Shown here: one piece after another, positions 1,959 through 27,570 of the stretch
Layout: the number at the start of each line of letters is the position of its first letter
Position numbering within the stretch: position 1 is the stretch's first letter
The notes under the pieces: generated by a model
What the model was told of the DNA's origin: nothing
The model's database searches: none
What the model saw: the letters and a program-made list of their open reading frames with translations, nothing else
Source: Halonotius terrestris
GTDB lineage: Archaea; Halobacteriota; Halobacteria; Halobacteriales; Haloferacaceae
Direction: 5' to 3'
NCBI RefSeq assembly: GCF_006861665.1
Contig: NZ_RKLU01000007.1
Location: forward strand, 26,517 to 59,275
DNA: 32,759 nucleotides
Program-made: the position numbers and the translations under genes

Positions 1959-1982
1959 TAGGATAGAATCAGTAAATGTGGC

Positions 1983-9239: not shown

Positions 9240-9243
9240 AACT

Positions 9244-11397
9244 CTATTCCTTCTCAATCCGGATGAAGTTCAGCATACATTCCTGCGGAAGGATCCCACC
9301 GTGATAATAGCGGGCGTCGGTAAGCCCACTTTTACTGTTGTACTGTCGGGGGTGGGCGAGCAGTCGAACTGATGTTTTTAGATATTCTGTTCCGGGTGTC
9401 TGACCCGTAACTCGGACGCCCGTTCCGGCGTCCTCGACGTCGTCTCCAGCGATTCGCCGATATTTGACCTCTCCATCTCCGTCGTAGCTAGAAATCGATT
9501 CCATCGTAGTCCCCTTCGGGAGCAGGACGAATCCGTGATCCGTCACCACGTAGATTCGATCCCAGTTTTCGTTCTCTAGCTTCTCTGTAATCAGATCGTA
9601 GAGCTCATCGATGTAACTGGTGAAATGACTCTCTGGATTGTCGAGTTCATTCTCACCGATATCGTCGATGTCCTTGTCGTAGTAGGCGATTTGGTGATGT
9701 TGCCACCCGGAATCGCGATCGTCCGGCACGTCCCATCCCTCTCGTTCAAGCACTTTCACTCGGTTTCCTTTGTTGTCGAGACGCTGACCACCTCGTTCGA
9801 CAGAGAGCTTCCCGTTCCGGAATTTGACGCGGAATCTGTGGGCTCGCCCCGGTGTGAGTGCAGCCATCCCGAATTTGGTCTCTGATGGAAGTGTGCTAAC
9901 TCTGGTCTCTTCGGCTATCGAATAGTCTTCTCGAAGGCGGTTGGCCAGCTCCCGAGCGAGGTCTAATCGCAGCGCATCAATCAGAAACAGGGCGACTGTT
10001 TCCCCTGTTGCGAGATCCTGTTCGTTGTCAGTCCACCACTCGTAGGCAGCGTCCTTCCCCGCCAGAGGCGATCCAGTACTGAACGAACTGACTACTGCCT
10101 CGCTCATCTCCTCAAGATAGTCCATATACCGCGTCTCTAAGAGCTCGGCACGAATCTCAGGGAGCGATTCCGTCGCCGGGTGAGAGTCGAGGAGCCTCTC
10201 TTGCTCGGGTTCACCTGTGATCTCGAGTTCCAACACCCCATAGTCGATCTTCCAAGTTCCGTCTTCCTGATCGGCATACTGGTCGAAGGGGTCGAACGAC
10301 TGGGACCGCTCTTCCCAGGCTGCAAACCGCAATTCCAACTCGGCTACCTGTTCGGCTTGTTCCCAGAGCGTGGTCCAGGGAATATCGTCCGGATACACCC
10401 CGAGGGCTTGTTGGCGTTCGTTCGCTCTTTCGATACATTCCGTGTACCTCCCCTCTTCTAATGATTCGAGCCAAGCATCCCACAGAGCTGCATCAAGCGC
10501 CCCATCAACCGGACAGGCCACGAGCTCCCACACATCGTCAGATGCTTCGATTACATCCCCCCAGTAGCTCTCGCTCAGATACCGCTCTGCCAACCGCTTG
10601 CTCTGTCGGGAATCGACAATCCGTTTTAGTGGGTTGATATCGCCAAGGGTGCTACCCACTTTTCCATATCCCTCGGGGAAGGCGTCGACATCCATTCCCT
10701 CGGCGACTAGCCAACGGGCAACGGCCCACTTCCAGACGACGTCCTCGATCTCCTCTGGTGTTTCAGCACTGTCTGCAGGAGCGACGTGCCTGTCTTTCAG
10801 TGATTCTTGCACTCGGGCGATTGTCTCGTCATCCCGGTCAATTTCTGGCCATCCTCCTTCGAGGAGATGCTCTAAAATCTGCCCCTCCCCTTTGGTGATG
10901 ATCTCACCGATTAGATCTCCGTAGCGTGGGATTCCACCGCTCCCAAACTGATTCTTGATTACCTTCGCCGCAGTTTCGCGATCAGATTCCGTTCCTCGTT
11001 CAATATCGTAGATATCCCAGGGGTTTACCTCATACAACTCGGCAGTCAGCTGTTCGATTGTGAGTTCGATTTCACCGCCTGTTTCACGGATGTCTCTGAA
11101 CCAGTCCCGCTCAATCATCCCCTCTTCTGAATCTTTGATTGTTTTCGCTTCCGGGATGTACCAGACGTGGGGCGATTCCGGTTCTTTCACTGCGGTTCTC
11201 CTCAGTTCGAGAGGGAACCGTTCTGCCTCCGAGAACCTCACTCCAATCTGGTCTGCAGCAGCACGGACAACCTCCCGGAGATGGCCCCCCTCGTCCCACC
11301 AGACGACCCGAACTGCCGTTGCGTGTTCATCAGGAAACTCATCCTCGAGATGGGCTTTCGCTTGGTTTTCGAGTGTCGTAGTTGGTTGCGACTTCAT
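9244..11397 (-). CDS. pglZ: PglZ, alkaline-phosphatase-fold protein of BREX
   Basis: A 717-residue PglZ-domain protein, the BREX hallmark. The early segment VRVVWWDEGGHLREVV (29-44) is typical of the N-terminus. The alkaline-phosphatase-like core shows FLIDALRLDLARELANRL (471-488, metal-binding Asp474), STLPSETKFGMAALTPGR (501-518), VVTDHGFVLLP (617-627) and the terminal YYHGGILPQE (697-706). PglZ is required for BREX phage defence; its exact substrate is not settled. Its ATG overlaps the stop of the preceding brxC by 4 bp (ATGA), and it is the last gene of the minus arm. The stop lies only a few bases from the tnpB remnant, so the island border is here. Confidence 0.93.
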   Translation of the reverse strand: MKSQPTTTLENQAKAHLEDEFPDEHATAVRVVWWDEGGHLREVVRAAADQIGVRFSEAERFPLELRRTAVKEPESPHVWYIPEAKTIKDSEEGMIERDWFRDIRETGGEIELTIEQLTAELYEVNPWDIYDIERGTESDRETAAKVIKNQFGSGGIPRYGDLIGEIITKGEGQILEHLLEGGWPEIDRDDETIARVQESLKDRHVAPADSAETPEEIEDVVWKWAVARWLVAEGMDVDAFPEGYGKVGSTLGDINPLKRIVDSRQSKRLAERYLSESYWGDVIEASDDVWELVACPVDGALDAALWDAWLESLEEGRYTECIERANERQQALGVYPDDIPWTTLWEQAEQVAELELRFAAWEERSQSFDPFDQYADQEDGTWKIDYGVLELEITGEPEQERLLDSHPATESLPEIRAELLETRYMDYLEEMSEAVVSSFSTGSPLAGKDAAYEWWTDNEQDLATGETVALFLIDALRLDLARELANRLREDYSIAEETRVSTLPSETKFGMAALTPGRAHRFRVKFRNGKLSVERGGQRLDNKGNRVKVLEREGWDVPDDRDSGWQHHQIAYYDKDIDDIGENELDNPESHFTSYIDELYDLITEKLENENWDRIYVVTDHGFVLLPKGTTMESISSYDGDGEVKYRRIAGDDVEDAGTGVRVTGQTPGTEYLKTSVRLLAHPRQYNSKSGLTDARYYHGGILPQECMLNFIRIEKE

Positions 11398-14300
11398 CGG
11401 TCTCCCTCCTCTGTATCGATAACCACAATTGTTCCGTCACCTGGTTCTGTTACCTCTGCCCAGAGCTCGTCGGCAGAAGGCCCATCGTCATCTTGGTCAT
11501 CATCGTCTTCATCATCCTTATCATCATCCTCTGACTCGAGCTTTGCATCGGCCTGTTTCACCAACGCTTCTGCTCGAGACGGTGTGACGAGGTCTGGTCC
11601 ACTTAGCGCACGCTTCACCTGCTTCGTGATGAACGCATCAGAATGTTCTGAGTTGAGTTCCTCGTACCGAGATTCGAGCTGATTGTAGAGAGGACCATTT
11701 GGTTGATCCTCGAGTAGTCCCCGTGCCTTCTCAAGCTGGCTAGCTTCGCTGACTGCGTTCCCGGATGCGATATCGGATTCGGAGATGTCATCCGCGGATG
11801 CAGCGATCTCATCGAGTTCTCTGAGTGACTCGAAATTCACTCCTGAAATTGTCTCGGTGACGGTATCGATTTCTACGATTATGTCTTGATCCAGTAACGC
11901 TTGCTCGACCACTGAACAGAGCTCCGAGATTGAATCCCCATCGGGTGTGGTTCCCGTGAGAAGGTGGTAGAGCTCACTAATCTGGGAGGTACGGAAGTCC
12001 TGAGCCTCTGTCTGGAGCTTAGTGAGACTCTCTTTGGAAGGGATGCGTGACCCATCGACGGCGTCCTCCATCTTGTAGGTAATCGCAGCATCTGGGTACA
12101 GTGATCGCATCGTCTCGAGTGTGCTGTTGAACTCATCCCAGAGCGGCTCCTCACCCTCGAATAATGGTTCAGCTTTGTGGAACCACTCTGCCTGCGTTGG
12201 TACTGGCGATTCAGTCAGTACTGCATCGTCAAGTTCGCCACCTGCCATCCCTGGTTCTAACGCGTCACGGAGCGCATCCAGCGTGATTTCTTCGTCAAAC
12301 TCGAGATCCACACGAGCACAGATGTTCCGAATACCCGAACTATTCTTTTCTGCCCATGAAGCGAGATTGGAGAGCCAAGCGGTCGGATCGTTCCCTTGTG
12401 GAGCGAATCCTCGGAGAGACTGATAGACCGCTTTTAGATTGCTACTTCCCTCAATGTCTACGGGATCGAATCCAATATCGATGTCACGGATATCGGAAAT
12501 ACGTCGCATCACGCGACCGATTTCGCCCGGGTCTTCGATACGGACCCCATCACGTCTGATCTCGATTTTGTTTGCTGCGGCAAGCGTGATCAGAAGCGCC
12601 GCCAGTGCCTCGCGTGGCGTTCCGAGATATTTCCCCCGTCGACCAGCGATTTCTTCGAGGACAGTCTCTCCACTCACTAATTCCTCTCCAGCGTAATCGT
12701 TGAGGAACTCTTCAGCCCACCCGTCACTAATCTCTCTCGGAACTGTCTTGACCCCGAGCATCTCTGCGTCGTCGCTTGAGAACGGCCACGTACCATTCCC
12801 GTTGAAAAACTCGAAGAGGGTCCGAGCGTCGTCAACCTCCTGCAGCCGTGTATCGAGTGTTTTCCTGTTCTCGAATTTCTCTCTGACAGCATCAGCGAGC
12901 ACACTATCGATGTTGCTTAGATACGTCCCTCGCGTCGTGTTATGGTCCGGCGTATAGAGCTTCGCTCCATAGAGGAGTTCCTCGATCTCGTCTTCGACGG
13001 TCTCCTCCTCCTGTTGTTGCTCGATACGGAGTTCTGCGCTAGCCCCCGGCTCCAATAACTTATCCAACGCAATCAGATGCCGAATACTCTCGCGAAGGCC
13101 CTCTGAAAGCTCAATAACGATGAGGACGTCTTCAACGCCTTGGTCACCAGCGTTCGCCTCCTGCCATCTCGTTCGTGACTCTTCTATTGTATCCGGGTCA
13201 GCCGCTAGTACCCTGGCAACTACACCATCGAAACGAGGTTCCGGTGATGAGTCGACTTGGTCTAATACAGTATAGCGGAACGTATACGGGGCGTCGGAGA
13301 TCCCGTCGATATTCCGCGTTCGGAGTGAATCATCTGCGGTCAACCGACCACGATCTGCCTCCCGGAGAAGGTCCTCAATATTGTACCGAACTTGATGTTG
13401 AGGAAGCCCTGCTGCCTCCCGGTGAATCTGATCCCAGAACTCGACGATCTCCTTCGACAGGATTCTATACGTCTGCGGTTGGACACTCTCGTCGGTTCGA
13501 ACGAAGTTGTCCTCCATCAGCGCTTTGAGGGCTTCCTCAACATCGTTTTCGAGCTGATCGATGTCAGTATCTACTGAGCTAACCAGCAGCCGTGTGATGT
13601 TCTCCTTCGTTGTTGGGACGGCCTCGACCTGGCCAAGGAGATAGAGAACTTTCGCGACACTCACCCCCATCTCGTCAGTCGTGTTCTCAACTTTCTGGAT
13701 CTGGTCCTTTGCCCACCCCGGAATGTCCGTTGTTTCGCGCTCAATCAAGTCATAGATTTCATCCCACGCAACGACCGCTCCAGGCTCTTTCTGGGACCAA
13801 TCAAAGCTGGTGAAGAGAGAACGAACGAGAATCAGCAGCGCTCGTCCTTGAACATACTCTCTGTCCACTTCCAAGTCTTCTTTCTTGAGACTCTGCATGA
13901 CCTCGCGGAGCAACCAGAGGTCGTGTTCACGGAAGGGATACGCCTCTACGGGCTCACCGACGTCGGTGTATTCTGAAGCGTCGGCAAGTTCTAACTCGAA
14001 GTCAGGAGCCCGTTCGAGCAGGTCGTGTACCGTGTTCGCCCCGGAATCTGACTTTCGGAGCCACCGCTTCCTGACTATGATCTCGGTATCGGCACCCCGG
14101 AGCGGAATTTCGTTCGTGTACCACGCCTCAGGATCGACCTCTCCCATGAAATCCTGCTGCATGTCCCGCAGCGACCACTGTCCTGTTCCCAAAATTGGGG
14201 GATTAATGTCGGCGATGAGTGTGTCGACCGTCTCCAGGAACTCTCGATAGCGGTGTTGCTGGTCACCGACGTAAATGGCGACTTCGTCGAGCCCGATGAG

Positions 14301-15086
14301 GAACTCGTACGTTTCGCCTGATTCCTGTAGGTAGCGCTTCGTTCGGTCCAGCCGTTCTACGAGTTCATTGGGTGTGAACGCCTCAGTACTGATCCGTCTC
14401 GTGGCTTGCTCGATTGATTCCCTGACGCCATCTTTCGTTGCATAGGGCGTGCCGTCAGTCTCGTGCATCTCAGGAAGTGCTTCATAGAGCCATGGACGGA
14501 GCGCAGCCTTGTCTTGTGCTGCTTCCTCTATCGACATTCCATCGTGTTCTACAGAGCGTACGGGTTCCCAGAGCCCATGCTCGATCTCTAGTGTCCACGC
14601 CCACTCGAGTAGCCAGAGTGGGTCAGTCGGGTAGTTGAGCTGATTCCCCAGCTCCTCGTAGATCAGGAGCGAGAGCGTTGAGTCACGGACCTTGTCCCGG
14701 TCGAGGAGGTTCATAAACAGGGGGACCAGGTGATCGATGTGGGACGAATTGAGCCGGTCTCTGAATTCCTTGAACCCAGAGAATTGGCTCGACAGCTTCG
14801 GAGCAACCGTTTCGAGCCCCTCGATCTCGCCGGTCGCGATTCCGATCAGCTTCAGAAGGTGCGTTTTCCCGGATCCGAAGGTGGCATGGACATACCGGAA
14901 GCGTGGCTGTGATCCTGTACTGTTGACGACTTCTCCAAGTTCTGTGAGTACCTTTCGAGCGCTATCAGTCTCGTAGAACTCGTCTATGTCGCGTTCGGCT
15001 TGGCCGACTTCGTTGACTTTCTGTACTTCTTCGAGTTCTCGCGTCGGCGAGCGAGCAAACAGTGATTCAAGTGTCGTATCAGTCAT
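11394..15086 (-). CDS. brxC: BrxC/PglY-type ATPase, first paralogue
   Basis: A large P-loop ATPase, 1230 residues from the ATG at 15084-15086 (MTDTTLESLFARS). An upstream TTG at 15116 would add ten residues, but the ATG gives an 8-bp overlap with brxB and a normal N-terminus. Walker A is FGSGKTHLLK (about 70-79) and Walker B FLIGLDEVAIYVGD (about 262-275), followed by a long helical body. The C-terminus has a striking Asp/Glu-rich run (KDDEDDDDQDDDG) before DELWAEVTEPG. BrxC proteins are essential ATPases of BREX, probably acting with PglZ and BrxB. It is one of two BrxC copies in the operon, and the two differ in N-terminus and tail. Paired BrxC genes are a mark of archaeal type 5 BREX. Confidence 0.88.
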   Translation of the reverse strand: MTDTTLESLFARSPTRELEEVQKVNEVGQAERDIDEFYETDSARKVLTELGEVVNSTGSQPRFRYVHATFGSGKTHLLKLIGIATGEIEGLETVAPKLSSQFSGFKEFRDRLNSSHIDHLVPLFMNLLDRDKVRDSTLSLLIYEELGNQLNYPTDPLWLLEWAWTLEIEHGLWEPVRSVEHDGMSIEEAAQDKAALRPWLYEALPEMHETDGTPYATKDGVRESIEQATRRISTEAFTPNELVERLDRTKRYLQESGETYEFLIGLDEVAIYVGDQQHRYREFLETVDTLIADINPPILGTGQWSLRDMQQDFMGEVDPEAWYTNEIPLRGADTEIIVRKRWLRKSDSGANTVHDLLERAPDFELELADASEYTDVGEPVEAYPFREHDLWLLREVMQSLKKEDLEVDREYVQGRALLILVRSLFTSFDWSQKEPGAVVAWDEIYDLIERETTDIPGWAKDQIQKVENTTDEMGVSVAKVLYLLGQVEAVPTTKENITRLLVSSVDTDIDQLENDVEEALKALMEDNFVRTDESVQPQTYRILSKEIVEFWDQIHREAAGLPQHQVRYNIEDLLREADRGRLTADDSLRTRNIDGISDAPYTFRYTVLDQVDSSPEPRFDGVVARVLAADPDTIEESRTRWQEANAGDQGVEDVLIVIELSEGLRESIRHLIALDKLLEPGASAELRIEQQQEEETVEDEIEELLYGAKLYTPDHNTTRGTYLSNIDSVLADAVREKFENRKTLDTRLQEVDDARTLFEFFNGNGTWPFSSDDAEMLGVKTVPREISDGWAEEFLNDYAGEELVSGETVLEEIAGRRGKYLGTPREALAALLITLAAANKIEIRRDGVRIEDPGEIGRVMRRISDIRDIDIGFDPVDIEGSSNLKAVYQSLRGFAPQGNDPTAWLSNLASWAEKNSSGIRNICARVDLEFDEEITLDALRDALEPGMAGGELDDAVLTESPVPTQAEWFHKAEPLFEGEEPLWDEFNSTLETMRSLYPDAAITYKMEDAVDGSRIPSKESLTKLQTEAQDFRTSQISELYHLLTGTTPDGDSISELCSVVEQALLDQDIIVEIDTVTETISGVNFESLRELDEIAASADDISESDIASGNAVSEASQLEKARGLLEDQPNGPLYNQLESRYEELNSEHSDAFITKQVKRALSGPDLVTPSRAEALVKQADAKLESEDDDKDDEDDDDQDDDGPSADELWAEVTEPGDGTIVVIDTEEGDR

Positions 15087-15705
15087 CGAGATACACCTCA
15101 GTGATTTTCTCGTCAATTCGGTGGGCTGGGTAGTAGTGGCGTGCGTCCTCGTTGAAGAAGCTCAATTTCCCGCCTCTAATCGAACCAGGGAACGGGATTC
15201 CGATTGTAGTATTCACGTTTCGGCGGTCCATCTCATCGAGCAGCTCTGAGGCGCGGGTGAACGGATAGAGGCTTCCGAGGTTCACCAGCAGAAGGATATG
15301 CTGCTGCGCATTCTCGCCTTTGAGTTGTCCTTCGACGAGTTTCCCGATGAGTTCGTCAGCTAGACTCGTTTCGAGCGTCTCCGTTACTGCATTCGTGGTG
15401 GTCCGCTCAAGAGGCCCGAGATCGAGTGTGGTTTCGAAAACACGCGTCTCGGGCATCAGGTGGTCAAGCCGAACACACTCGACTGTGAGTTCGTTGCCGG
15501 CCTGGTTCTCGATGCCAGCCCAGTTCGTCAGTGTATCTGGTGTCTCGGGGTCTGCCCACTGAATCAACCGTTCCGTCACTCGGTGTTCAACAGATGGTTC
15601 GACTGGCACCATGACGAAGGGATTTCGAATTCCCCGCCGTTCGCCACTTGCGAAGTCGACCAATTCCTCGGTAAATCTCTTGAGCGGGTTTCGCGTCGAC
15701 GTCAT
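15079..15705 (-). CDS. brxB: BrxB (DUF1788 family)
   Basis: A 208-residue protein with the DUF1788 pattern: ETRVFETTLDLGPLER (86-101), VNLGSLYPFTRASELLDEM (141-159), IGIPFPGSIRGGKLSFF (168-184) and YYPAHRI (191-197). BrxB is a small core BREX protein of unknown biochemistry that accompanies BrxC and PglZ. It starts inside an ATGA overlap with the upstream brxC at 15702-15705 and overlaps the next brxC by 8 bp. It sits between the two BrxC genes, which suggests it is made in step with both. Confidence 0.88.
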   Translation of the reverse strand: MTSTRNPLKRFTEELVDFASGERRGIRNPFVMVPVEPSVEHRVTERLIQWADPETPDTLTNWAGIENQAGNELTVECVRLDHLMPETRVFETTLDLGPLERTTTNAVTETLETSLADELIGKLVEGQLKGENAQQHILLLVNLGSLYPFTRASELLDEMDRRNVNTTIGIPFPGSIRGGKLSFFNEDARHYYPAHRIDEKITEVYLDD

Positions 15706-18700
15706 TTGATAATCACACCTCCATCGATCTGTTCTATCGTCGGCTTCCTCGACTTCACGAGACGCTCAAATTGGCCCTTGAGTGCAGACTCATCGCCGAA
15801 TAGCACACCTACACCTTCGATTTCCTCGGGTCGAGTCCCACCAACCAGTTGCTCTACAGTCTCGTACTTCTCACGATACGTGTCGACTCGGTCCTCAGTG
15901 AGGCTTTCCCAATCCGTTGTTGAGGATACCGTCCCGAGCGCTCGTTTCAATGTGCGCTCGTCGTGAGTTCCTGGTTCCCGGTTCGTTAACGCACTAATAC
16001 AGACTTGGATGCTTTCGTGGGTATCTCTGAAGTGCCGAAGTGGGCGGAGATATCCGGATTGGAATCCATCGTGAATGCTGTGTTCAGGGAGCTGTAGGGG
16101 CGGGATCAGCCATTGATGTCCCTCGAGTTCTGTCACTAGTGATTTCGCGTTGGTCTCTGCCACTTGAGCCGACCAATCCTCTTCAAGCGCTGAAATTGCA
16201 GTCAACCGGGCATCCAGTGACTGATCAAAGGACTGCCAGCCCTCCTGCGTCCACCACTCCCGACCAGACTCGTTTTCGAGCTGTTGGCTCAGCTGGTCCA
16301 GTGCGTCGTAGAACGATTGGCTAAGCCAGTCAATCTCCAGCTCTCTGAATCGCAGTAGCCCGTCGAGTTGTAATAGATAGGATTCTCTGGAGTCCCATCG
16401 ATCCTCAACCGCAGTCAACCACTCTTCGTCACTCGCCACTTGATCGATTATCTCTTCCCAGTCCGTATCGTCGGCAGCGATTGCGTCGGCGCGTGATTCT
16501 GCGCTATCCGCCAGTTCAGAGAGCGCATTGCTGAATGACGCAACCAGAGAGACGAGTGCATCGCTCTCTAATTCCGTCTCTGTACTGACTTCTGTCGTCT
16601 CTGCAAGCGTGCGCGCTTGCCTCTTAACCGACTCATTCAGTTCTTCGAGGGCAACGATTCCCTCGTCGACCGTTTGAATCGGGTCGATGATTCCAGCATC
16701 GATGAACTGTTCCTTGAGCGACGTCGAAGACGGCGCAGTACGCAGCTTGATCTCCATCTGCTGAGAGAGCGTCAGCAGTTCATCCGCGGCGAGAGCCTCT
16801 CCGTCCTCTGCAACGGGACGGAACTCTCCCGCGCGACACAGCCCCCAGAGTACCGCCGTTACTGCCGGCTTGACCTCTCCGTAGAACGGCGTCTCCTCGG
16901 TGATTTTCTCGAAGAGTGCTGGCAGACCCATCTCGTTGTCATGGTCAACCAGCGTTCGACCGACGGCGCCTCGAATCTCTTTCGCAATCGTCCCCATCGT
17001 GGACACCTCCGCATCTGGTGTTGGGACATCGATTTTCTGTGCCCACTCTGGGTACTCCTCGTCGTCGATGAGCCGCTTTAGCTCCGAGAGGTAGCTCTGG
17101 TCCACCTCGAGCATGACGGGATGGAAGAACGAGGGATAGGCACGGTTGATACACTCTTTGACCGCAGACTCGAGACCACGTGGTTCCTGAGATTCAACCT
17201 TGTACGAGCCATCTTTGAGTGCGCTCGCGAGCTTACTTTTCACCCTGTCCGCTGCATCGTCGACGTCTCGGGCTATCGTGTCGGGTGTCTCCGTCTCGGC
17301 AGTCGCTTCGTGGAACGACCACCACTCGATGAGCTGGCTTCGGAGATCATCCAATCCATCCTCCTTGACCGACCAGTAGATCGTTCCCTCGTTGACTTTC
17401 TTAGAGTCGACATCAGGTCGCACGCCCCGGATAACCACTGTGGCTTCGAGCGCACTCTCGTGCTCGTCTTCCTCTTCCAGTGGTTGCCCGTCGATGGAGA
17501 AGTTGTACGAGATGGGGTAGTTGTCGCCGTCCCCACCGTAGGGAACCGACGTTGGGAGATTCAGACGAGGGCTGATGTCCGCCCAGAGTTCAGTGTCGAA
17601 AGCGGCGATAATCTCGTCCCAATCTGGGTTCTTGCGGTTCTTGCGTGCCTCTTCGATGATCTCTCGTTCCTCTCGATCCGTGATTCGAAGGAGAGGACCG
17701 TCCTCAGCAGTGTTCGGCCTGATGTACTTGTCGAGGTTCTCCAGTGAATTCTGGACCTGGTTTCGGACGGTCGTCCGCGGCTGCCCGTTAAGGTCGTCCA
17801 TCACCGCAACCGCGATGTTTGCGTCGTTCTGTGGGACTGAGTCGGGCACGTACGAGAGGAGTAAGACCGCTTTTGCGACCTTGAGATCGAAGTCAGTCGT
17901 GTCTTCGTCGGCTTCGATCTCTTCCAGGACTTCGATCTCGTTGGGGATGATGTCCTCGAGCTCGTACCGAATCAGGTCATAGAAGTCGACGAGGCTGATT
18001 AGGGACAGCTCGTCTTTGCTTTCGTCGCGCATCCATCGATCCCGGAGTCCGGCGACGATGGCGAGAATCGCTCTCGCTGTCCCTGAGAAGATCGACTTCG
18101 TCGAGTCGGCCAACTCGTTCCGAAGGTTCGAGAGTATCTCTAGGAAGAGCGCCGGCTGGTAGGGCAGGAGCGGATAGAACTGCACGAACTCCTTTTCTTT
18201 GACTCGATTGAGAGGTGGCTCTGTGTTCTGCCCGACCTCTGAGTAGACGAACGTAGATGTCGGATGTACCCGCGCCGTCAGTGCTTCTGACTCAACCCAA
18301 TCTGTTCCTGCTTCGGTCTTCTTGAGGAGGCGACGTTGAACGATTTCCCCGACGTGATGACTTGGCAAGTGGTACTGGTGGGGGAACCGGTCTTTGAGAA
18401 TCCCGAAGTCGAGTTGCTTCGCGGCAAGTCCTGGTCGGACGTCCTCGATTTGAGACTGCGCCGTCGCGACCATCTGGATGTTCCCCTCGCCGATCGTATC
18501 GATACTCTCCGCGAGCGCGTTGAGTTCCGAGAGACGCTGGTAGTCCCCACCGATGAAGAGCGTCACCTCATCGACGAGGAGGACGATCTTTACCGGCTTC
18601 TCAGACTCCGCCTCAAGGTCTTGCCGATACGACTCGACGGCTTCGACAGCCATCCGCTGCCCGATATCCTGGCGTTGGATATCTGCCAACCCATCTGCAG

Positions 18701-19403
18701 TTCCTGTCTCTCGTTCGACGAGCTCCTCCAATACAAGATCAGAGAGGGTTCGGTACTGTTGGACGTCGTCCCACGAGTACTGATCCGCGTTTGGAACGCC
18801 TTCGTTTTTGAGGACCTCTTTCGTGAGTTCGTCACGCTGATCCCACGTTCCCTGATTCTGGTACCACTCCTCGAAGAAGGCGACATCGAGTCGGTTCGAG
18901 AGGCCTCGCGCCTGGTAGACTGCTTGGAGGATGATCTCACTGAAGCTCTGTTCCCGGACGCTCTGGTACTTCAGGAGGTTGATTGGAAGGGGGACGAGAT
19001 GGTGCTCGTCGAGCATCGAGGACCATGTCTCGTAGAGGTCGCTGTAGGCGCTATCTGAATCCAGCCGATTCCAGACCTCTTCTCTGTCTTCCTCTTCGAG
19101 GTCTGCAGACGCAGTGAGGAGGTTGAGGACGGTCAGCAGGTGACTCTTCCCGCTGCCGTAGTACCCGTAGAGCCAGTGATTGGCCCCCTTCCGCATCTCC
19201 TCGTCGTGGCCGTGAATTCGAGTAAAGAAGTCACGGAGGAAGTTCTCTGAGGCATCTGTGATGTGGTAGGTGTCGAGGTAGTGGCGGTAGAGCTGATCGC
19301 GATGAGCGGCTTTGTCTTCGTCTTCTTCGAACTTCCGGTCGATGCGGATCGACTCCTCGAAGGTTGCGTCCTGCTTCTCGAAGAGGTCCTCCATGGGCGT
19401 CAT
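15702..19403 (-). CDS. brxC: BrxC/PglY-type ATPase, second paralogue
   Basis: A 1233-residue P-loop ATPase. The N-terminus (MEDLFEKQDATFEESIRID) is typical of BrxC; Walker A is GYYGSGKSHLL (80-90) and Walker B is VLLVDEVTLFIGG (274-286), followed by MVATAQSQIEDVRPG, a sensor-like segment. The long remainder is mostly helical with repeated acidic stretches and includes WADISPRLNLPTSVPYGGDG. The ATG at 19401-19403 makes a 4-bp ATGA overlap with brxA, favouring that start over the internal Met4. Within BREX it should act as the main ATPase together with PglZ. Compared with the copy at 11394-15086 it lacks the extreme acidic tail. Confidence 0.9.
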   Translation of the reverse strand: MTPMEDLFEKQDATFEESIRIDRKFEEDEDKAAHRDQLYRHYLDTYHITDASENFLRDFFTRIHGHDEEMRKGANHWLYGYYGSGKSHLLTVLNLLTASADLEEEDREEVWNRLDSDSAYSDLYETWSSMLDEHHLVPLPINLLKYQSVREQSFSEIILQAVYQARGLSNRLDVAFFEEWYQNQGTWDQRDELTKEVLKNEGVPNADQYSWDDVQQYRTLSDLVLEELVERETGTADGLADIQRQDIGQRMAVEAVESYRQDLEAESEKPVKIVLLVDEVTLFIGGDYQRLSELNALAESIDTIGEGNIQMVATAQSQIEDVRPGLAAKQLDFGILKDRFPHQYHLPSHHVGEIVQRRLLKKTEAGTDWVESEALTARVHPTSTFVYSEVGQNTEPPLNRVKEKEFVQFYPLLPYQPALFLEILSNLRNELADSTKSIFSGTARAILAIVAGLRDRWMRDESKDELSLISLVDFYDLIRYELEDIIPNEIEVLEEIEADEDTTDFDLKVAKAVLLLSYVPDSVPQNDANIAVAVMDDLNGQPRTTVRNQVQNSLENLDKYIRPNTAEDGPLLRITDREEREIIEEARKNRKNPDWDEIIAAFDTELWADISPRLNLPTSVPYGGDGDNYPISYNFSIDGQPLEEEDEHESALEATVVIRGVRPDVDSKKVNEGTIYWSVKEDGLDDLRSQLIEWWSFHEATAETETPDTIARDVDDAADRVKSKLASALKDGSYKVESQEPRGLESAVKECINRAYPSFFHPVMLEVDQSYLSELKRLIDDEEYPEWAQKIDVPTPDAEVSTMGTIAKEIRGAVGRTLVDHDNEMGLPALFEKITEETPFYGEVKPAVTAVLWGLCRAGEFRPVAEDGEALAADELLTLSQQMEIKLRTAPSSTSLKEQFIDAGIIDPIQTVDEGIVALEELNESVKRQARTLAETTEVSTETELESDALVSLVASFSNALSELADSAESRADAIAADDTDWEEIIDQVASDEEWLTAVEDRWDSRESYLLQLDGLLRFRELEIDWLSQSFYDALDQLSQQLENESGREWWTQEGWQSFDQSLDARLTAISALEEDWSAQVAETNAKSLVTELEGHQWLIPPLQLPEHSIHDGFQSGYLRPLRHFRDTHESIQVCISALTNREPGTHDERTLKRALGTVSSTTDWESLTEDRVDTYREKYETVEQLVGGTRPEEIEGVGVLFGDESALKGQFERLVKSRKPTIEQIDGGVIIK

Positions 19404-20239
19404 GCCGACCCCTCCGCGAGCATCGTGTAGAAGTCGTCGACGGGCTCGAACCAGACGCGACTCCGGGCTTCGTGGTGTGTCCAGCCCTCATATCCAGCCA
19501 GACGCTTACTCTGGGGTTCCCAGTACTCCTTGGACTGGAACAGGTAGAGCCAGCCGATCGGCTTCGTGAGCCATTCGTCGCCGTTCTGTGCCCAAGAGTA
19601 GTAGGCCGCGACCTGGAGAGGTACATCACCAACCTTCGGCGGTTGACCAGATGTCTCGGTTTTCCCTTCGAGCACACCAATATCACGAAGGGCAGACCTG
19701 AGTCCCTGTACCCACCGTTTCTGTGTTGATTCCGAGTACTCTAGCGGTTCGCCAGCCTTGTCGCGGAACTCGTCGAGGATGTTGAGAACAGTATCCGTCT
19801 CGAAGTCGAGTGCGGAGGGCCCTTGTTTCATCAGTCGGCGAAGGTACTCGTGGACGACATAACGAGCCAGCCCGTCGTGGTTGACGAGATAGAGGAAGAG
19901 GACCTGTGCCTGATCGCGTTCGTTTCGACATTGGTCCAAGACCTCTGGGAGCAACGGGATTGATGGAAACCCTTCACCCGCTGACTGAAGCCGTGCTCGA
20001 ATCGCAATGAGCAAGGATTTCGAACTGTTTCGACTACTCCTGTTCGCGACTCGTTCGTCGTACCAGATGTCTTTCACTGAGGTCCAGTCGAGTTCGTCCG
20101 CGTAGAGAGAGGAGATTTCGTGTGTTCTCTTGGTCTGGAGACCACACCGAGTTAGAGCCATCGTGATTTTCGATTCGGGGAGCGTCCCGATGAGAGATGG
20201 GACCCATGAATCTAAATCCCCGTTTCGACCTGTAGCCAT
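19400..20239 (-). CDS. brxA: BrxA (DUF1819 family)
   Basis: A 279-residue protein, first gene of the minus BREX arm. Features of the BrxA/DUF1819 family are an N-terminal segment SWVPSLIGTLPESKITMAL, the helical middle (AQVLFLYLVNHDGLARYVVHEYLRRLM), and a C-terminal WLYLFQSKEYWEPQSKRLAGYEG rich in aromatic residues (recognised as family-like, not aligned). BrxA is a small helical DNA-binding BREX protein. It is somewhat longer than the ~200 residues usual for bacterial BrxA. A weak TATA-like TCTAAGTA on the minus strand (20261-20268) lies about 25 nt upstream of the ATG at 20237-20239. The assignment rests on family resemblance plus its place in a BREX operon. Confidence 0.8.
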   Translation of the reverse strand: MATGRNGDLDSWVPSLIGTLPESKITMALTRCGLQTKRTHEISSLYADELDWTSVKDIWYDERVANRSSRNSSKSLLIAIRARLQSAGEGFPSIPLLPEVLDQCRNERDQAQVLFLYLVNHDGLARYVVHEYLRRLMKQGPSALDFETDTVLNILDEFRDKAGEPLEYSESTQKRWVQGLRSALRDIGVLEGKTETSGQPPKVGDVPLQVAAYYSWAQNGDEWLTKPIGWLYLFQSKEYWEPQSKRLAGYEGWTHHEARSRVWFEPVDDFYTMLAEGSA

Positions 20240-20359
20240 ACTATGACGAGACCGTGGTATCTACTTAGAAGTTCTTGTGAGGACTTCAGGAAAATCGACG
20301 GACCTCAAGGGAACTTTGATGTGGGCTCATTATGAGGTAGGAGACAAGAGCGGTACATC
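20240..20359. promoter_or_regulatory. Divergent promoter region between the two BREX arms
   Basis: This 120-bp spacer separates brxA (minus) from pglX (plus), so it must drive both arms. For pglX a TATA-like CATTATGA at 20328-20335 lies about 28 nt before the ATG at 20360. For brxA, TCTAAGTA on the minus strand at 20261-20268 lies about 25 nt before its ATG. Both spacings suit leaderless transcripts, but both boxes are weak. I see no strong operator palindrome. Confidence 0.5.
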
Positions 20360-23300
20360 ATGTCTGGACAATCTTCTCTTGAGACGAAAGCCCAACTGGA
20401 CAAATCAGAACGTGAGCATCTTGAAAAAGTTGTTAGGAAACTCCGGAAAACTGTAGAGTCAGACGTTGATTACCAGCTAGAACATTCGTACGACCTCAAA
20501 AAGAAAGGTGGCGGCGATGACCTATCTGGCGAAAAAGCAAGAGATAGGTCAAAATTAGCTGACGCAGTTGAACACGAGGATGAAGATCGAGACTGGTCCG
20601 AAAAATATCAACTCTACGTTACCGGGGTTGGATTTACGCTTGTTAACCGCATCACTGCATTGCGATGTATGGAGGTTCGAGACTTCATTGAAAGGCCGGT
20701 AACTCAGTTCGGAAACTCTGATACCACGCCTGCTGCTGAGAAACTTGAAAATGAAGAGTACCTAGCTCCCGATGAAGCGATAATCGAGGCCTTCAATCGT
20801 GAGTGCCTCGAGCTCGCCGACGAAATTGAGATCCTTTTCAATCCAGATTCCCCGTATTCGATTATCGACCTCGATGTAGATGTTTATAAAGAACTCTGTG
20901 AAATCATAGACGAAATCCCGGAGAATGTTTGGCTGGCCGATGATGTCCTTGGGTGGGTCTATGAATATTACAATCGTCCAATCGTTGAAGAATTAGAAGA
21001 CAAAAACACTCTGGAACCGGATGAGGTTCCTGCTGCGAATCAGTTCTATACGCCTCACTGGGTCGTTCGACTGCTCACTGACAATAGTTTGGGGAAGCTA
21101 TATTTAGAACAGAAGGATGAATTGCTGGATGCGGTTGATACTCAGTCGGAGATCTCTACTGAGCATAGAAAATCAAGGCCAACCACTCTGGAGCAAGCAC
21201 CCACTGTACAGGATTTCTGCACGTACCTCTTACCGAGCGAGAAGGAAGGTAAGGCAACAGATTTTGACCATCCAGAGGAAATACGTGTTATTGACCCCGC
21301 TTGTGGCAGTGGTCATTTCCTGTTGTACGCTTTCGATGTGCTTGAACGTATTTGGCGGCGCGAGTGTCCTGAATTAGATCCTGGAGAGATTCCTGGGAAA
21401 ATTCTGGAACATAACCTTCACGGGGTTGATCTCGACCTCCGGTCATGCCAGCTTGCTACTTTCAACCTCTATCTCAAGGCGAGAACACAAGCGGAGGCTG
21501 CCGGTAACGATCAGTTCACGCTTCCGAAAGTTGGGATTGTTTGCGCTGATGCTCGTATCGCAGATATGGAGTCCGTCAACGAGATTCTGGAAGGTATGTC
21601 TACTAGTGATTCAGAACTTGAAACTGCACTCCAGAAAATCTTGGACTCATTCGAAAATACTCCTGCGTTAGGGACTTTGCTCGACGTCAAAGGAACTCTA
21701 GAGGATGTATTTGACACAGATGATCAGGTGACAATACAGCAAGCAGTCAATGGTACTGGGAGCCTGAGTACTTTCTTACGCTCCCTTCAGGAAAAGATGG
21801 AGGAACGCTACGGAGATAATGAGGAGTTTGCTGCTCAGGATCTCCGGAGTTTCATCAAGCTTCTAGTTATTCTTACTCAGGACTACGATGTCTCACTGAT
21901 GAATCCGCCTTACGGTGCTCGTGGGCGGATGCCTGATGAAGTCCGTGACTACATTAACGAGAACAAGAATTACAAGTATACTCCTGAATATTACATCAAC
22001 TTCTTTGAGGCCTGCGAACGACTCTCGAAGAAAAACGGCCGCGTTGGAATGTTGGTCAAGCGTGAGTTCATGTTTAAAAACAGCTTGGCAGATTTCCGTG
22101 AGGATTTCATCGGGGAACGCGGTTCGTTTGATTTCCTCGCCGAATTTGGTGAGGGTATCCTTGACAAAGCAAAGGTCCGTGGAGCAGGGACCGTTGTGAG
22201 GACAAAAAGTGAGGATGACTCAGCATCTGCGGGTACGTTCATCCGATTACATGACGTACCTAAAGAACAAAAAGAGGGGAAATTACTGGAAGCTGCATAT
22301 GACGCTCCGGTAGATGAGGATGGTATTCAGCGTCTCTACCGGCGAGAATTATCTGAGTTTTCATTGATTCCAGGAAGCCCAATGTCTTATTGGGCACCGA
22401 TTGAGCTACGAGAAGTATTTGATTCGGAGATAGTATTTGATGCCGACAATGGGGGTGTGAATAAAAGAAGTCTCGGGGTGGTTAAACAGGGTCTCGCAAC
22501 TGCTGATGATGATCGGTTCACCCGACGCTTCTGGGAAACAGACTCTGACGACTGGGTACCATTCGCTAAAGGAGGAGAAGATGCGTGGACATTACCCCGA
22601 ATTAATCTGATGCTCTATTGGGGAGATAACGGTGTTGAATTAAAATCGTTTGACAGGTCCTATCTCAGGAATACTCACCACTACTTTTCGGAAGCTCTGA
22701 CCTACACATACATGAAAAGTAGTGGCAGAAGGTTCGGCTATCTGCACCCTCACTCGATATTTGGTCATGCTGGGAACGTGTTTATCCCTGATTCATCATC
22801 TTGGTCGGTCATGGCATATGGGAATAGTCATGTTGTAACCTATCTGATGGCTTGTCTCGACCCTGGTCGCCACTGGGAGGTAGGGAACGTGTCAAAGTTG
22901 CCGTGGTATAGCAAATTAGCAGACACCAGTGAACTTAGAGAAATCACGGAAGAAATTGCGGGCCTCTTGCTGTATCAGCGAATGTCCGATTTCAATTCTC
23001 CGTATTTTGTTGCACCACGGATTCTACAGTTAATTGGCGAAGATGAGCCTATAGACATCTTTGAGGACCACCCTCATCGTGACCTCTTGGAAAAAACCAA
23101 GTTGCCAACGTTCGACCCTGGATGTGATTCCGCTTGGGAAATCGAGGACCTAGCAGTAGAAACAACCCGGATTCAGAAGCAGGTTGAACACCAACTTAGA
23201 CAGTTAGCACGTGATACTGATACTGCTGTCTTCGACTCTTTCGAGTTTGATGAAGACCTGCGAACTGAGATCAAACGAGAAATTTCACTGCGCACTAATC

Positions 23301-24631
23301 AGAACCCGTTAGAACCACTTCCATCGGAACCCGATGAAGTATCTGAGCCGCAGAATTACGAATCTCAAGTACAGGACATTGTACTATATCTTGCCATAAA
23401 GGCGGTGACAAACAGTGAAGACGGGATTGCACCTCTCACCAAAGAAAGCGGTGAGTTCGAAACGCTGTTCGATATAGTCGTCACTGAAGCTGAGAGTGTA
23501 TTCGGGGAGTATGTCGATGAGCGACTAAATGAAATTGACTCTGCCCTCGGAGACAAACGTACCTCAGAGATTGCCTATCCGAACCTCAAGGATTGGCTCA
23601 AAAACAATCTGTTTGATTATCAGCTGGGCCGATTAGAGAATACCCCGATACTCTGGAGGTTTACTACAGAAAGGCTAGTTGCTGATCCTGAGAGTGAGGG
23701 CTTTGGTTGTTTTGTCGATTATCACCGCTTCAGCCCATCCACATTTGACCAACTCCAGACGAACTATCTCGAACCCCGAAAGGAAGCACTCCGAGATCTC
23801 AGAGCAACTGCGAATCAACGTCGAGACGATAGCTCCCTATCGAGTTCTGACCGGGCTGAAGCTGCTGAGGCGTTCAATAAATATGAGAATGCTCTGCGGC
23901 AAATCAACGAATTTGAAGAGGCTCTGCTTGAACTCTCGGAGGTACAGAGTCGAGGGGGGAGTAAAGAATCTCAGGAATTGGCCGCGGACTTGCAGTCAGA
24001 TATTGAGCGGTTCCAGAACAGGATGGAGGAACGGCTTGATGCGTTCAGGGATCTCGTAGATATGTCTGATGATGATTGGCTCGGTGAGACGTTCACTGAT
24101 ACCTTTAGTCCGTACGTCCTTGAACAAGAAGAGGAATGGCGAACTGCATTCGATTGCGGAATTGAGGCTTGTGGGGCGTACTCGAAAAACGAAAGTTCAC
24201 CAGTGGAACCCCATTACTATGATTACTTACTGAATTGCCAGGACAACATCGGTACGACGTCCTACCACAGGAATGGAATCCTCTTTTTACATCACTACTT
24301 CGGGAAGAAGGATTTCCGAAGCCTGCTCGACGATGGAGAGCCACGTGAAGGAATGGCAAAGCGGGAAACGCTGCTTGCGAAGCTGGCAGCAGGTATCGAT
24401 AAAGATGCAGAGCTGGGTGAAGATATCAAAAAGAAATGTGAACAGCTTCTGGGGGAAATCGAAGTGAATTGGAGCGGTTCATACTCCTCGGATTGGGAAG
24501 GTCGAGCATTGGACGAAATTATGACGGGTGGGTATCATCCGGTTAAAAAGCACGGCGTGGCAGTCAATATTCGGCCCCTCTCAGAAAAGAAACTAGTTCC
24601 AAAATCGGTCAACGATGACGTCGTACTCTAA
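20360..24631 (+). CDS. pglX: PglX, BREX adenine-specific DNA methyltransferase
   Basis: A 1423-residue N6-adenine methyltransferase. The methylase core shows NQFYTPHWVVRLLTDNSLGKLY, SAM-binding DPACGSG (312-318) and catalytic NPPY (515-518), then EYYINFFEACERLSKKNGRVGMLV. The second half should carry target recognition. PglX methylates host sites so that BREX spares self DNA; it also takes part in defence. It starts the plus arm, 9 bp ahead of brxHII. Base composition is clearly lower than its neighbours (for example 23 of 60 bases G+C at 21961-22020 against 40 of 60 at 25321-25380), with many A/T-ending codons, consistent with separate acquisition or allele replacement. No break is visible, so the methylase should be intact. 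An interrupted or phase-variable form can be excluded by the long open frame. Confidence 0.92.
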   Translation: MSGQSSLETKAQLDKSEREHLEKVVRKLRKTVESDVDYQLEHSYDLKKKGGGDDLSGEKARDRSKLADAVEHEDEDRDWSEKYQLYVTGVGFTLVNRITALRCMEVRDFIERPVTQFGNSDTTPAAEKLENEEYLAPDEAIIEAFNRECLELADEIEILFNPDSPYSIIDLDVDVYKELCEIIDEIPENVWLADDVLGWVYEYYNRPIVEELEDKNTLEPDEVPAANQFYTPHWVVRLLTDNSLGKLYLEQKDELLDAVDTQSEISTEHRKSRPTTLEQAPTVQDFCTYLLPSEKEGKATDFDHPEEIRVIDPACGSGHFLLYAFDVLERIWRRECPELDPGEIPGKILEHNLHGVDLDLRSCQLATFNLYLKARTQAEAAGNDQFTLPKVGIVCADARIADMESVNEILEGMSTSDSELETALQKILDSFENTPALGTLLDVKGTLEDVFDTDDQVTIQQAVNGTGSLSTFLRSLQEKMEERYGDNEEFAAQDLRSFIKLLVILTQDYDVSLMNPPYGARGRMPDEVRDYINENKNYKYTPEYYINFFEACERLSKKNGRVGMLVKREFMFKNSLADFREDFIGERGSFDFLAEFGEGILDKAKVRGAGTVVRTKSEDDSASAGTFIRLHDVPKEQKEGKLLEAAYDAPVDEDGIQRLYRRELSEFSLIPGSPMSYWAPIELREVFDSEIVFDADNGGVNKRSLGVVKQGLATADDDRFTRRFWETDSDDWVPFAKGGEDAWTLPRINLMLYWGDNGVELKSFDRSYLRNTHHYFSEALTYTYMKSSGRRFGYLHPHSIFGHAGNVFIPDSSSWSVMAYGNSHVVTYLMACLDPGRHWEVGNVSKLPWYSKLADTSELREITEEIAGLLLYQRMSDFNSPYFVAPRILQLIGEDEPIDIFEDHPHRDLLEKTKLPTFDPGCDSAWEIEDLAVETTRIQKQVEHQLRQLARDTDTAVFDSFEFDEDLRTEIKREISLRTNQNPLEPLPSEPDEVSEPQNYESQVQDIVLYLAIKAVTNSEDGIAPLTKESGEFETLFDIVVTEAESVFGEYVDERLNEIDSALGDKRTSEIAYPNLKDWLKNNLFDYQLGRLENTPILWRFTTERLVADPESEGFGCFVDYHRFSPSTFDQLQTNYLEPRKEALRDLRATANQRRDDSSLSSSDRAEAAEAFNKYENALRQINEFEEALLELSEVQSRGGSKESQELAADLQSDIERFQNRMEERLDAFRDLVDMSDDDWLGETFTDTFSPYVLEQEEEWRTAFDCGIEACGAYSKNESSPVEPHYYDYLLNCQDNIGTTSYHRNGILFLHHYFGKKDFRSLLDDGEPREGMAKRETLLAKLAAGIDKDAELGEDIKKKCEQLLGEIEVNWSGSYSSDWEGRALDEIMTGGYHPVKKHGVAVNIRPLSEKKLVPKSVNDDVVL

Positions 24632-24640
24632 GGGACCCAC

Positions 24641-27550
24641 ATGAGTATTGAATTCGACCCTGGCGATCACATTATACTCAACGGTGACCCAGCAGAGGTC
24701 ATCCGTACGTATGAGGTCGGGAACCTCCCATATCTCCGGGTTTACGTCGAAGGTGATGGCGCGAAGACGGTCTGTCTTGACCACGTCTCCGTCGAACCAA
24801 GCAGTGATGCACTCGATACCCTCGAAAATCAAGTAGCAGACCTCCACCCTCGACACGAAGCAGTCTCGTCGGAGTGGTTTGACCTCCGGACCGAGGCCCT
24901 CCAGCTTAAGATGGCCCACGAGCAGGGGCAGCTCCTGAGCATCTCGAACTCGCTCGTCCGCCTCGAACCCTACCAGCTCGCCTGTGTGAATCAGGTGATG
25001 CAGAAGCTCCGCCAGCGAGCACTCATAGCCGACGACGTCGGTCTCGGGAAGACCATCGAAGCAGGCCTCATCCTCAAAGAACTTGAAGCCCGAAATCGGG
25101 CCAACAGCGTCCTCTTCCTTGTTCCCGCACACCTCCAGAAGAAGTGGATCCGGGATATGGAGCGCTTCTTCGACATCGACCTCACGGTTGCGGACCGCCA
25201 GTGGGTCGACGCCGAGCGGCGACGACTCGGCGAGGAGGCGAACATCTGGGACCAGGAGGGCCAGCGTCTAGTCACCAGCATGGCGTTCCTCCGTCAAGAC
25301 GAGTTCCAGTCTGAGATCGAGAACGCCTTCTGGGACGTCGCCGTCATCGACGAAGCGCACAAGGCCAGCAAGCGGGGCGAGTCCCCCAGCAAGACCTCGC
25401 TTATGGCCGAACGCGTCGCCAATCACTGTGAATCCCTGCTGTTGCTAAGTGCGACGCCGCACGACGGGAAGGGGGAGGCGTTCCGATCCCTTATCAGCTA
25501 CATCGATCCATTCCTCGTCGCCGAGGACCAGGACCTCACTCGGGAGACGGTGAACCGTGTCATGATCCGGCGCGGGAAGGAGACCATCTACGACGACAAC
25601 GGCGAGCGCATCTTCCCCGAGCGAGACGTCCAGACGGCCACCGTCTCGATGTCGCCTGCAGAGGAGCAACTGTACGAGCGCGTGACTGAGTACGTCCGTG
25701 AGGTCTACAACCGATCTGACCAATTGAACGAGCCCGCCGTCGGCTTCGCGATGGCGCTCATGCAAAAGCGGCTTGTGAGCAGCGTAGGCGCGATTCGAGA
25801 GACACTCCGACGTCGCCTTCACGGGCTGCTCGAACCCGACGAGCGGGATCTCTCGACCGATGCGACGGCCTACCTCGAAGGCGAGGACCTGGAGGACTCT
25901 GACCGTGAACAGGCGGAGCAGGAACTCGAACGGCTCACGGTCGCTCAGGGTGATGAAGCACTCCAGAAGGAGATCGACACCTTGCGGGAGCTCGTCGCCA
26001 TGGCAGAGGACCTCCCAGTCGACACCAAAGCCCGGAAGGTCAAACGCTACATCGAGCAGCTCTTCGAGGAGCATCCGGACGAGAAGCTCATCCTGTTCAC
26101 TGAGTACCGCGATACGTTGGACTATCTCCTCGATCTCTTCGCCGACGAACCATGGGCAGACGAGATTCTGACCATCCACGGGGATGTGAGCAAAGACGAA
26201 CGAACCCGGATTGAGGACGAATTCAACTACGGGAAGTCCCGATTACTGATGGCGACCGATGCAGCCAGTGAGGGGATCGACCTCCAGCACAGCTGCCACA
26301 TTATGGTCAACTACGAACTCCCGTGGAATCCGAACCGCCTCGAACAGCGTATCGGTCGGATCCATCGCTACGGCCAGGATAAGGAAGTCAAGGTGTGGAA
26401 CTTCCAGTTCGATGGCACTCGGGAATCCGAGATCTTCGAGCTCCTCCAGGACAAGGTCGAGGAGATTAGATCGAAAGTCGGCGCGACGGCGGACGTCCTC
26501 GGGATGCTGGACGACGTTAACATCGACTCCCTCCTGATGAAATCCGTCCAGAATCAGGAACCAGCCTCAGCCACGAAAGAGGAACTCGAGGAGTTGATGG
26601 AAGAGCGTGAACAGACGCTCCTCGAGTGGTACGAGCGGAGTCTCATAGACTGCAGTACGTTCGACGCTGAGAGTCGGAAAGAGATTCAGTCGATCGTCGA
26701 CGACTCAGAGGACGTCTTCGGAAGTGAACAGGAAATCCGGGAGTTTTTCATTCGAGCTATTGAGGCGTTCGAGGGCTCAGTCGAGAAGCGCGGAAACCAG
26801 CTGTATGAGGCAGAAGTCCCATCTGCATTGACTGACAGCGGTCAGCCTGAGACGATGGGTCCGTTCACCTTCAGTCGCGATTTCGCCATCGATCACGACG
26901 GAATCGAGTACCTCTCCCCGGACGCGGATATTCTTCAGGCCCTCCGTGATTTGGTTCTCCAGCAGGAACAACACGCAGGGAAGGCCGGAATGAAGCTGCT
27001 GCCGTTCGTGGACCAACCCGGCATCACATTTGTCTACAAAGTCGCCTTCGAAGATGCAACCGGCAAGACGATTCGCGAGCAACTCATCCCCGTCTACGTC
27101 GACCTTGCTGGACTTGACGCTCAACGTTCACTCGGCCAGCGCGTCCTTGATGCAGAGACGGTTCACGCTCGTCCGGATGAGAGTACGGTATCTCGGCTAC
27201 TCAAGCAACGAGGCGACCTGGAGGACGCTGCCGAGAGGTACATCAGTAGTATGGTCGCCGACATCCGGGAAGATCTGCTCGAAAACCGTCAGCAGGACGT
27301 TCAGAAAGAACTCTCCGACTTGGAAGCCTATGAGCAAGCAGAACGCGATCGGATCCAGTCGTTCATCGATTCATACGAGCAAAAAGCGACAACGGGATCG
27401 GATATGCGCATCGCGATTCGGAACCAAAAACAACGTCTTGAGCAGCTGGAAACCCGGATCGAGTCACGAAAGGCAGAGCTACGGAAGCGAGAACAGGTGA
27501 TATCACTTGCACCAGACATTGAGGCGTACTGTCTTACACTTCCAGTATAG
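24641..27550 (+). CDS. brxHII: BrxHII-type SNF2-family helicase
   Basis: A 969-residue superfamily 2 (SNF2/Rad54-like) ATPase. Motifs: LEPYQLACVNQVM (108-120), Walker A DDVGLGKTIEAGL (131-143), DEAH box (237-240), LLLSATPHDGKG (266-277), HGDVSKDERTRIEDEFNYGK, TDAASEGIDLQ, and QRIGRIHRYGQ (569-579). The C-terminal third is a helical extension with coiled-coil character (REDLLENRQQDVQKELSDLE). In BREX type 3 and 5 systems a helicase called BrxHII accompanies PglX. The gene follows pglX by 9 bp with no promoter, so they are one operon. Its N-terminal half is much more GC-rich than pglX. A DISARM DrmD helicase is related, but no DISARM partners (DUF1998, PLD) are present. Confidence 0.88.
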   Translation: MSIEFDPGDHIILNGDPAEVIRTYEVGNLPYLRVYVEGDGAKTVCLDHVSVEPSSDALDTLENQVADLHPRHEAVSSEWFDLRTEALQLKMAHEQGQLLSISNSLVRLEPYQLACVNQVMQKLRQRALIADDVGLGKTIEAGLILKELEARNRANSVLFLVPAHLQKKWIRDMERFFDIDLTVADRQWVDAERRRLGEEANIWDQEGQRLVTSMAFLRQDEFQSEIENAFWDVAVIDEAHKASKRGESPSKTSLMAERVANHCESLLLLSATPHDGKGEAFRSLISYIDPFLVAEDQDLTRETVNRVMIRRGKETIYDDNGERIFPERDVQTATVSMSPAEEQLYERVTEYVREVYNRSDQLNEPAVGFAMALMQKRLVSSVGAIRETLRRRLHGLLEPDERDLSTDATAYLEGEDLEDSDREQAEQELERLTVAQGDEALQKEIDTLRELVAMAEDLPVDTKARKVKRYIEQLFEEHPDEKLILFTEYRDTLDYLLDLFADEPWADEILTIHGDVSKDERTRIEDEFNYGKSRLLMATDAASEGIDLQHSCHIMVNYELPWNPNRLEQRIGRIHRYGQDKEVKVWNFQFDGTRESEIFELLQDKVEEIRSKVGATADVLGMLDDVNIDSLLMKSVQNQEPASATKEELEELMEEREQTLLEWYERSLIDCSTFDAESRKEIQSIVDDSEDVFGSEQEIREFFIRAIEAFEGSVEKRGNQLYEAEVPSALTDSGQPETMGPFTFSRDFAIDHDGIEYLSPDADILQALRDLVLQQEQHAGKAGMKLLPFVDQPGITFVYKVAFEDATGKTIREQLIPVYVDLAGLDAQRSLGQRVLDAETVHARPDESTVSRLLKQRGDLEDAAERYISSMVADIREDLLENRQQDVQKELSDLEAYEQAERDRIQSFIDSYEQKATTGSDMRIAIRNQKQRLEQLETRIESRKAELRKREQVISLAPDIEAYCLTLPV

Positions 27551-27570
27551 TTTGGCTATGTTTTCAGCTG

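Follow-up and report, generated by a model that had tools for sequence, protein, structure and literature searches.

Why does a BREX type 5 defence locus encode two BrxC ATPases? The question is raised by a stretch of 32,759 nucleotides from the haloarchaeon Halonotius terrestris, called the window below, in which the original prediction recognised a BREX island with two BrxC genes and rightly called the need for both an open question. No explanation for the two BrxC proteins of BREX-5 was found in the literature searched, and neither was a biochemical study of any BREX-5 protein. The analysis now gives the question a specific, testable candidate answer, which is that one of the two proteins, BrxC2, has lost its arginine finger.

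All seven expected parts of the system are present and intact at 9244-27550, and profile searches assigned each of the seven proteins to a named BREX family with strong matches in NCBIfam, PADLOC and Pfam. On the minus strand lie brxA (19400..20239; PADLOC 287 bits, Pfam BrxA above cut-off), the first BrxC AAA+ ATPase gene brxC1 (15702..19403; PADLOC BrxC 1185 bits), brxB (15079..15705; an inactive AAA+/STAND-like PglZ partner, PADLOC 238 bits, Pfam BrxB above cut-off), the second BrxC AAA+ ATPase gene brxC2 (11394..15086; PADLOC BrxC 1036 bits) and pglZ (9244..11397), which encodes the BREX-5 PglZ, a metal-dependent effector of nuclease/phosphatase fold (PADLOC 617 bits). On the plus strand lie pglX (20360..24631), for the BREX-5 adenine-N6 DNA methyltransferase that sets site specificity, and brxHII (24641..27550), for a RapA-like Swi2/Snf2 helicase (PADLOC 1652 bits) whose best sequence relatives are RapA structures. 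The PADLOC models for BrxA, BrxB, BrxC (twice) and BrxHII align along almost their whole length. The start codons of the two divergent arms are separated by a 120-bp intergenic region (20240..20359), presumed by its position alone to hold the promoters of both. The minus-strand genes overlap by 4 bp at brxA/brxC1, brxC1/brxB and brxC2/pglZ, and by 8 bp at brxB/brxC2, counting brxC2 from the ATG at 15086; its reading frame extends to a TTG at 15116, but the ATG, as in the annotated Halorarius relative, is the likelier start. Overlaps this small (4, 4, 8 and 4 bp) fit a single operon.

The active sites of the system appear to be in working order. In PglZ, the only PglZ of the whole genome, residues D474, T507, D620, H621 and H699 are unchanged in an alignment of 64 relatives, and T507 and H699 are by eye the counterparts of the catalytic threonine and histidine of PorX/E. 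fergusonii (PMC12205998). The DPACGSG and NPPYG motifs of PglX are unchanged across 50 relatives, and the helicase motifs of BrxHII across 14. An active C-terminal nuclease of BrxHII has been described for some type 5 systems (PMC12839542); such a nuclease was looked for here and set aside, as the conserved C-terminal residues of the 14 relatives form no obvious PD-(D/E)XK signature by eye. From the intact active-site residues, the locus is taken as a functional BREX-5 system, which is a prediction. A 95-aa open reading frame at 8830-9117, between pglZ and addB, was also considered as a system gene and rejected; it spans the backbone boundary at 8850, has no family match and is probably no gene.

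The locus is a complete BREX type 5 system of a known, ordinary kind, as was predicted from its gene content. PglZ scores 1166 bits on BREX_PglZ_5 (NF033444; cut-off 250) and PglX scores 1806 bits on BREX_5_MTaseX (NF033454; cut-off 900), and both gene content and gene order are those of annotated BREX-5 loci. The other particulars of the prediction were borne out as well: the minus-strand overlaps of 4-8 bp, the lack of BrxL (PF13337 is missing from the entire assembly, which is 95% complete), and two distinct BrxC on either side of brxB, both of which belong to the BREX family by profile, sequence and fold. The two proteins score 176 and 253 bits on the general NCBIfam BrxC model, under its cut-off of 400, and 1036 and 1185 bits on the PADLOC BrxC model. 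The locus shares with BREX type 5 all seven genes, the absence of BrxL, the two BrxC and the type-specific PglZ and PglX models. With BREX type 1 (Acinetobacter, Escherichia, Salmonella) it has in common the BrxA, BrxB, BrxC, PglX and PglZ families and the BrxC N-terminal fold, but type 1 has a single BrxC with an arginine finger, a YYRA arginine in BrxB and BrxL in place of BrxHII (PMC13326643); with no BrxL and two BrxC, one without the finger, the window does not fit canonical type 1. A 2026 study prefers to treat types 5 and 6 as subsets of type 1 (PMC12839542). BREX type 3 has the BrxHII helicase in common with type 5 (PMC12839542), but has PglXI and BrxF where the window has a type 5 PglX and BrxB. 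Nor does the locus fit DISARM, which combines DrmA, DrmB and DrmC with a DrmD-type helicase: with 408-446 bits on DrmD models, BrxHII stays under the curated cut-off (610) and far from the 1652 bits of its own model, and in the profile search none of the locus proteins had DrmA, DrmB or DrmC as best match.

Contrary to what had been supposed, BREX-5 turned out not to be rare in haloarchaea, with PglZ above the BREX-5 cut-off in 62 of 392 haloarchaeal species genomes sampled evenly from the class. A phylum-wide sample of 345 genomes gave 11 such matches, all in the window's own taxonomic order. The divergent two-arm layout that had been described is present, but it is the minority form. Among about 60 BREX-5 loci compared for gene order, the majority are collinear (brxA-brxC1-brxB-brxC2-pglX-pglZ, often followed by brxHII), while in the minority, the window included, pglX and brxHII diverge from brxA-brxC1-brxB-brxC2-pglZ. 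The window's core proteins are only 37-57% identical to those of the collinear majority. Whichever the arrangement, a complete locus always has the order brxC1, brxB, brxC2. Two disrupted loci were seen along the way. In Haloquadratum walsbyi J07HQW2, a closely related cassette has brxC1 and brxC2 in several fragments and is a decayed BREX-5 copy. On plasmid PHS3 of Halobacterium salinarum R1, a transposase and other genes separate brxC2 from pglX, and pglX-pglZ lie about 6 kb from the remaining BREX-5 genes and are followed by the AddAB pair.

The two BrxC proteins were compared across about 55 loci covering both BREX-5 arrangements (52 BrxC1, 56 BrxC2), together with nine BREX-1 BrxC. In a tree of the AAA+ domain, built with the finger region omitted, BrxC1, BrxC2 and BREX-1 BrxC are each set apart by one branch with support of 99, 100 and 99; the method was a quick one, branches are long and the deep rooting is unsure, but the three groups are clearly separate. 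BrxC1 and BrxC2 are thus two separate ancient clades. Both gene arrangements recur within each of them, which makes the pair older than the split between arrangements. The BrxC2 branch is the longer, at 4.47 changes per column versus 2.41 for BrxC1. The two N-terminal domains were modelled with AlphaFold (pLDDT 73 and 82), and in a fold search solved BrxC chains (9zll, 9zdx) were the only matches of either model below E 1e-3. This settles the family membership of both proteins; neither is a non-BREX ATPase.

The difference between the two lies at the arginine finger. In Acinetobacter BrxC, the key residues are K78 (Walker A), E269 (Walker B) and R430 (sensor 2), and K326 and R330 are fingers which reach the ATP of the neighbouring subunit, where E289 receives R330; the mutation R330E abolishes self-association, restriction and methylation (PMC13326643). 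The residue aligned with R330 is arginine in 52/52 BrxC1 (R339 in the window's protein) and in 9/9 BREX-1 BrxC, and tryptophan in 56/56 BrxC2 (W332 in the window's protein, numbered from the TTG at 15116), with four residues missing immediately ahead of the tryptophan. A separate profile-profile alignment placed a tryptophan or a gap, never an arginine, opposite the finger arginine in BrxC2. The result was also checked without an alignment: a tryptophan stands exactly 15 residues ahead of the motif VRKRW in all 56 BrxC2, with no conserved arginine near it. The finger loop of BrxC1 (residues 317-347) is poorly resolved in its model, and the finger was placed through sequence alignment alone. 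Every BrxC2 in the compared loci has lost the arginine finger. No discussion of this loss was found in the literature searched, a search which did not take in the original 2015 BREX paper.

The other catalytic residues are kept. K78, E269 and R430 have their counterparts in 56/56 BrxC2, and in BrxC1 wherever the residue is present; the Walker B DE is retained in all BrxC2, and 52 of the 56 have E or D at the position of the acceptor E289. Of the catalytic columns among 30 AAA+ columns invariant in BREX-1 BrxC and BrxC1, R330 is the only one that BrxC2 has lost (Walker A S79 is T or S). BrxC2 thus seems capable of binding and hydrolysing ATP and of accepting a finger, and incapable of giving one. 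BrxC1 itself lacks the second, lysine finger, with isoleucine at K326. Around D204, the BrxB contact, BrxC1 and BrxC2 align too loosely to be compared.

A related change is seen in BrxB. The Acinetobacter BrxB docks on the ATP pocket of BrxC and provides a finger-like arginine, R182 (PMC13326643). In ten BREX-1 BrxB compared, the arginine of a YYRA motif (LYRA in one) is invariant, and in the aligned BREX-5 BrxB the motif is YYPA (YYPT in one), with proline replacing the arginine; the window's brxB is no different. Judging from residue spacing, R182 is most likely the YYRA arginine. If so, BrxC1 would be the sole finger donor left in BREX-5.

Given that the Acinetobacter R330E mutant loses association and both activities, a natural BrxC without the finger can hardly work alone, and this makes a directional BrxC1-BrxC2 assembly the simplest reading. 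We think it probable, though well short of certain, that the window holds an intact BREX-5 with a non-redundant, ancient BrxC pair, in which BrxC1 gives the finger and BrxC2 only accepts it. PglX would methylate host sites and so mark self, and BrxA, BrxB, both BrxC, PglZ and BrxHII would stop incoming viral DNA that lacks methylation; PglZ is the likely nuclease, and BrxHII would take the place of BrxL as DNA motor. BrxC1 has kept its ATP pocket as well as its arginine finger, and with them both faces of the AAA+ contact; the finger would insert into the ATP site of BrxC2. BrxC2, with a pocket predicted to work and its finger gone, would terminate the chain, and no closed homo-oligomeric ring could form once it joins. 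The gene content, the intact motifs, the finger loss in every BrxC2 and the separate ancient clades are observed; the contact between BrxC1 and BrxC2, the direction of assembly, its effect on methylation or restriction, and the anti-viral activity are what we infer.

Three other readings of the pair were weighed. BrxC1 and BrxC2 may instead work in separate complexes, one for methylation and the other for restriction, with no mixed assembly. In BREX-1, the complexes for the two activities are believed to overlap without being the same and to be under the control of BrxC (PMC13326643), and the gene order would suit such a division, since brxC2 adjoins brxB and pglZ while brxC1 adjoins brxA. However, the Acinetobacter finger mutant lost both activities, so a lone BrxC without the finger would be unexpected in either complex, and we regard this division of labour as unlikely. 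It is more doubtful still that BrxC2 has relocated its finger and is by itself a fully functional homo-oligomeric ATPase; the pair would then provide two parallel motors or different DNA preferences. The long BrxC2 branch makes rearranged contacts plausible, and all 56 BrxC2 do carry an arginine in the helix that follows sensor 1, the chief reservation about the directional assembly. But that arginine occurs at two offsets, 27 or 30 residues ahead of VRKRW (the two offsets account for 25 and 31 loci), and it is near the protein's own sensor 1, not before strand 5; in the models it looks too near its own ATP site for a finger role, and the tryptophan never varies among the 56 proteins. That the second BrxC serves as a spare copy or a decoy, for instance one diverged enough to escape viral inhibitors such as the vibriophage protein OrbA, which acts via BrxC (PMC11580459), is very improbable, as both genes are found in every complete locus, with the ATPase residues kept and one specific substitution fixed, and an idle spare would hardly look so.

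To a bolder proposal we would give an even chance. In BREX-5, the one homo-oligomeric BrxC known from BREX-1 may have become two obligate partners with a fixed direction, BrxC1 the sole donor of an arginine finger and BrxC2 a terminal acceptor without one. Such a pair would act as a ring-breaker inside the BREX complex and set its stoichiometry and polarity, the BrxB finger having been lost in the same redesign.

The cassette sits in a cargo slot (8851..27855) of a plasmid-like backbone, where backbone homology ends at 8843-8852 (8 loci) and restarts at 27855/27856 (3 loci). On one side is a block (908-8802) of ParA (908-1846), an AddA-like UvrD/PD-(D/E)XK helicase-nuclease (1983-5621, minus strand) and an AddB-like PD-(D/E)XK protein (5614-8802, minus strand), the latter two named from Pfam matches and belonging to the backbone, not to BREX; on the other side is Cdc6 (27916-28944). 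The ParA and AddAB-like block is more than 90% identical (the AddAB pair mostly so) on many haloarchaeal plasmids, beside changing cargo in which defence systems of the methylation type are frequent. In 45 neighbourhoods, about 20 of them without a class, the other cargo included collinear BREX-5, BREX-1, DUF499/DUF1156 methylase-helicase systems and McrBC. No truly empty slot was found; the loci with cdc6 nearest addB still carry 2-12 kb of other cargo. The AddAB pair was considered as a BREX-5 subunit and not adopted. As a backbone pair, it stands beside many other systems, though it is near PglZ more often than HsdR is: addB lies within 26 kb of PglZ5 in 16/94 cases and near other PglZ in 6/94, while among the matches listed HsdR is near any PglZ in 0/109. 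The main text of PMC12839542 makes no mention of AddAB, AddB, UvrD or RecB. The contig region 6518-26517 includes an integrase closely related to one found beyond ParA on a Halorussus plasmid, so the 79-kb contig may be a plasmid or an integrative element.

Within the slot, the cassette proper spans 9244-27549, the limits of its homology to the cassettes of other hosts, which ends at the pglZ stop codon (9244; 9235 in one locus) and at the brxHII stop codon (27549). Related cassettes occur in other genera and families, including Halorubrum trapanicum and Halobacterium salinarum, with DNA 92-95% identical over 9.6-12 kb. In Halorarius halobius, the BREX-5 locus of plasmid unnamed3 (NZ_CP101164.1) has the same gene order and orientation and core proteins 91-97% identical; it differs in its flanks outside 9244 and 27549, in a 522-bp hypothetical gene between pglX and the helicase gene, and in its PglX, only 54% identical. 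Among the related cassettes, BrxA, BrxC1, BrxB, BrxC2, PglZ and BrxHII are 90-100% identical where present, while identity in PglX is 49-65% over most of the protein. The contrast indicates that pglX was exchanged while the rest travelled as a block. The exchange is, judging from these identities, one of the whole gene or nearly so, and is predicted to be one that should change the methylated site.

The system itself is, by its predicted parts, ordinary, and the asymmetry of its BrxC pair is the interesting part. What is new is that one of the two BrxC proteins has lost its arginine finger in all the loci compared, which makes the question of why there are two experimentally testable. The tryptophan of BrxC2 is a natural counterpart of the Acinetobacter R330E mutant, and the asymmetry also matters for BREX-1, where the choice between a BrxC dimer and a closed BrxC ring is not yet settled. 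Together with the cargo slot, the swaps of pglX illustrate how haloarchaea reshuffle methylation-based defence.
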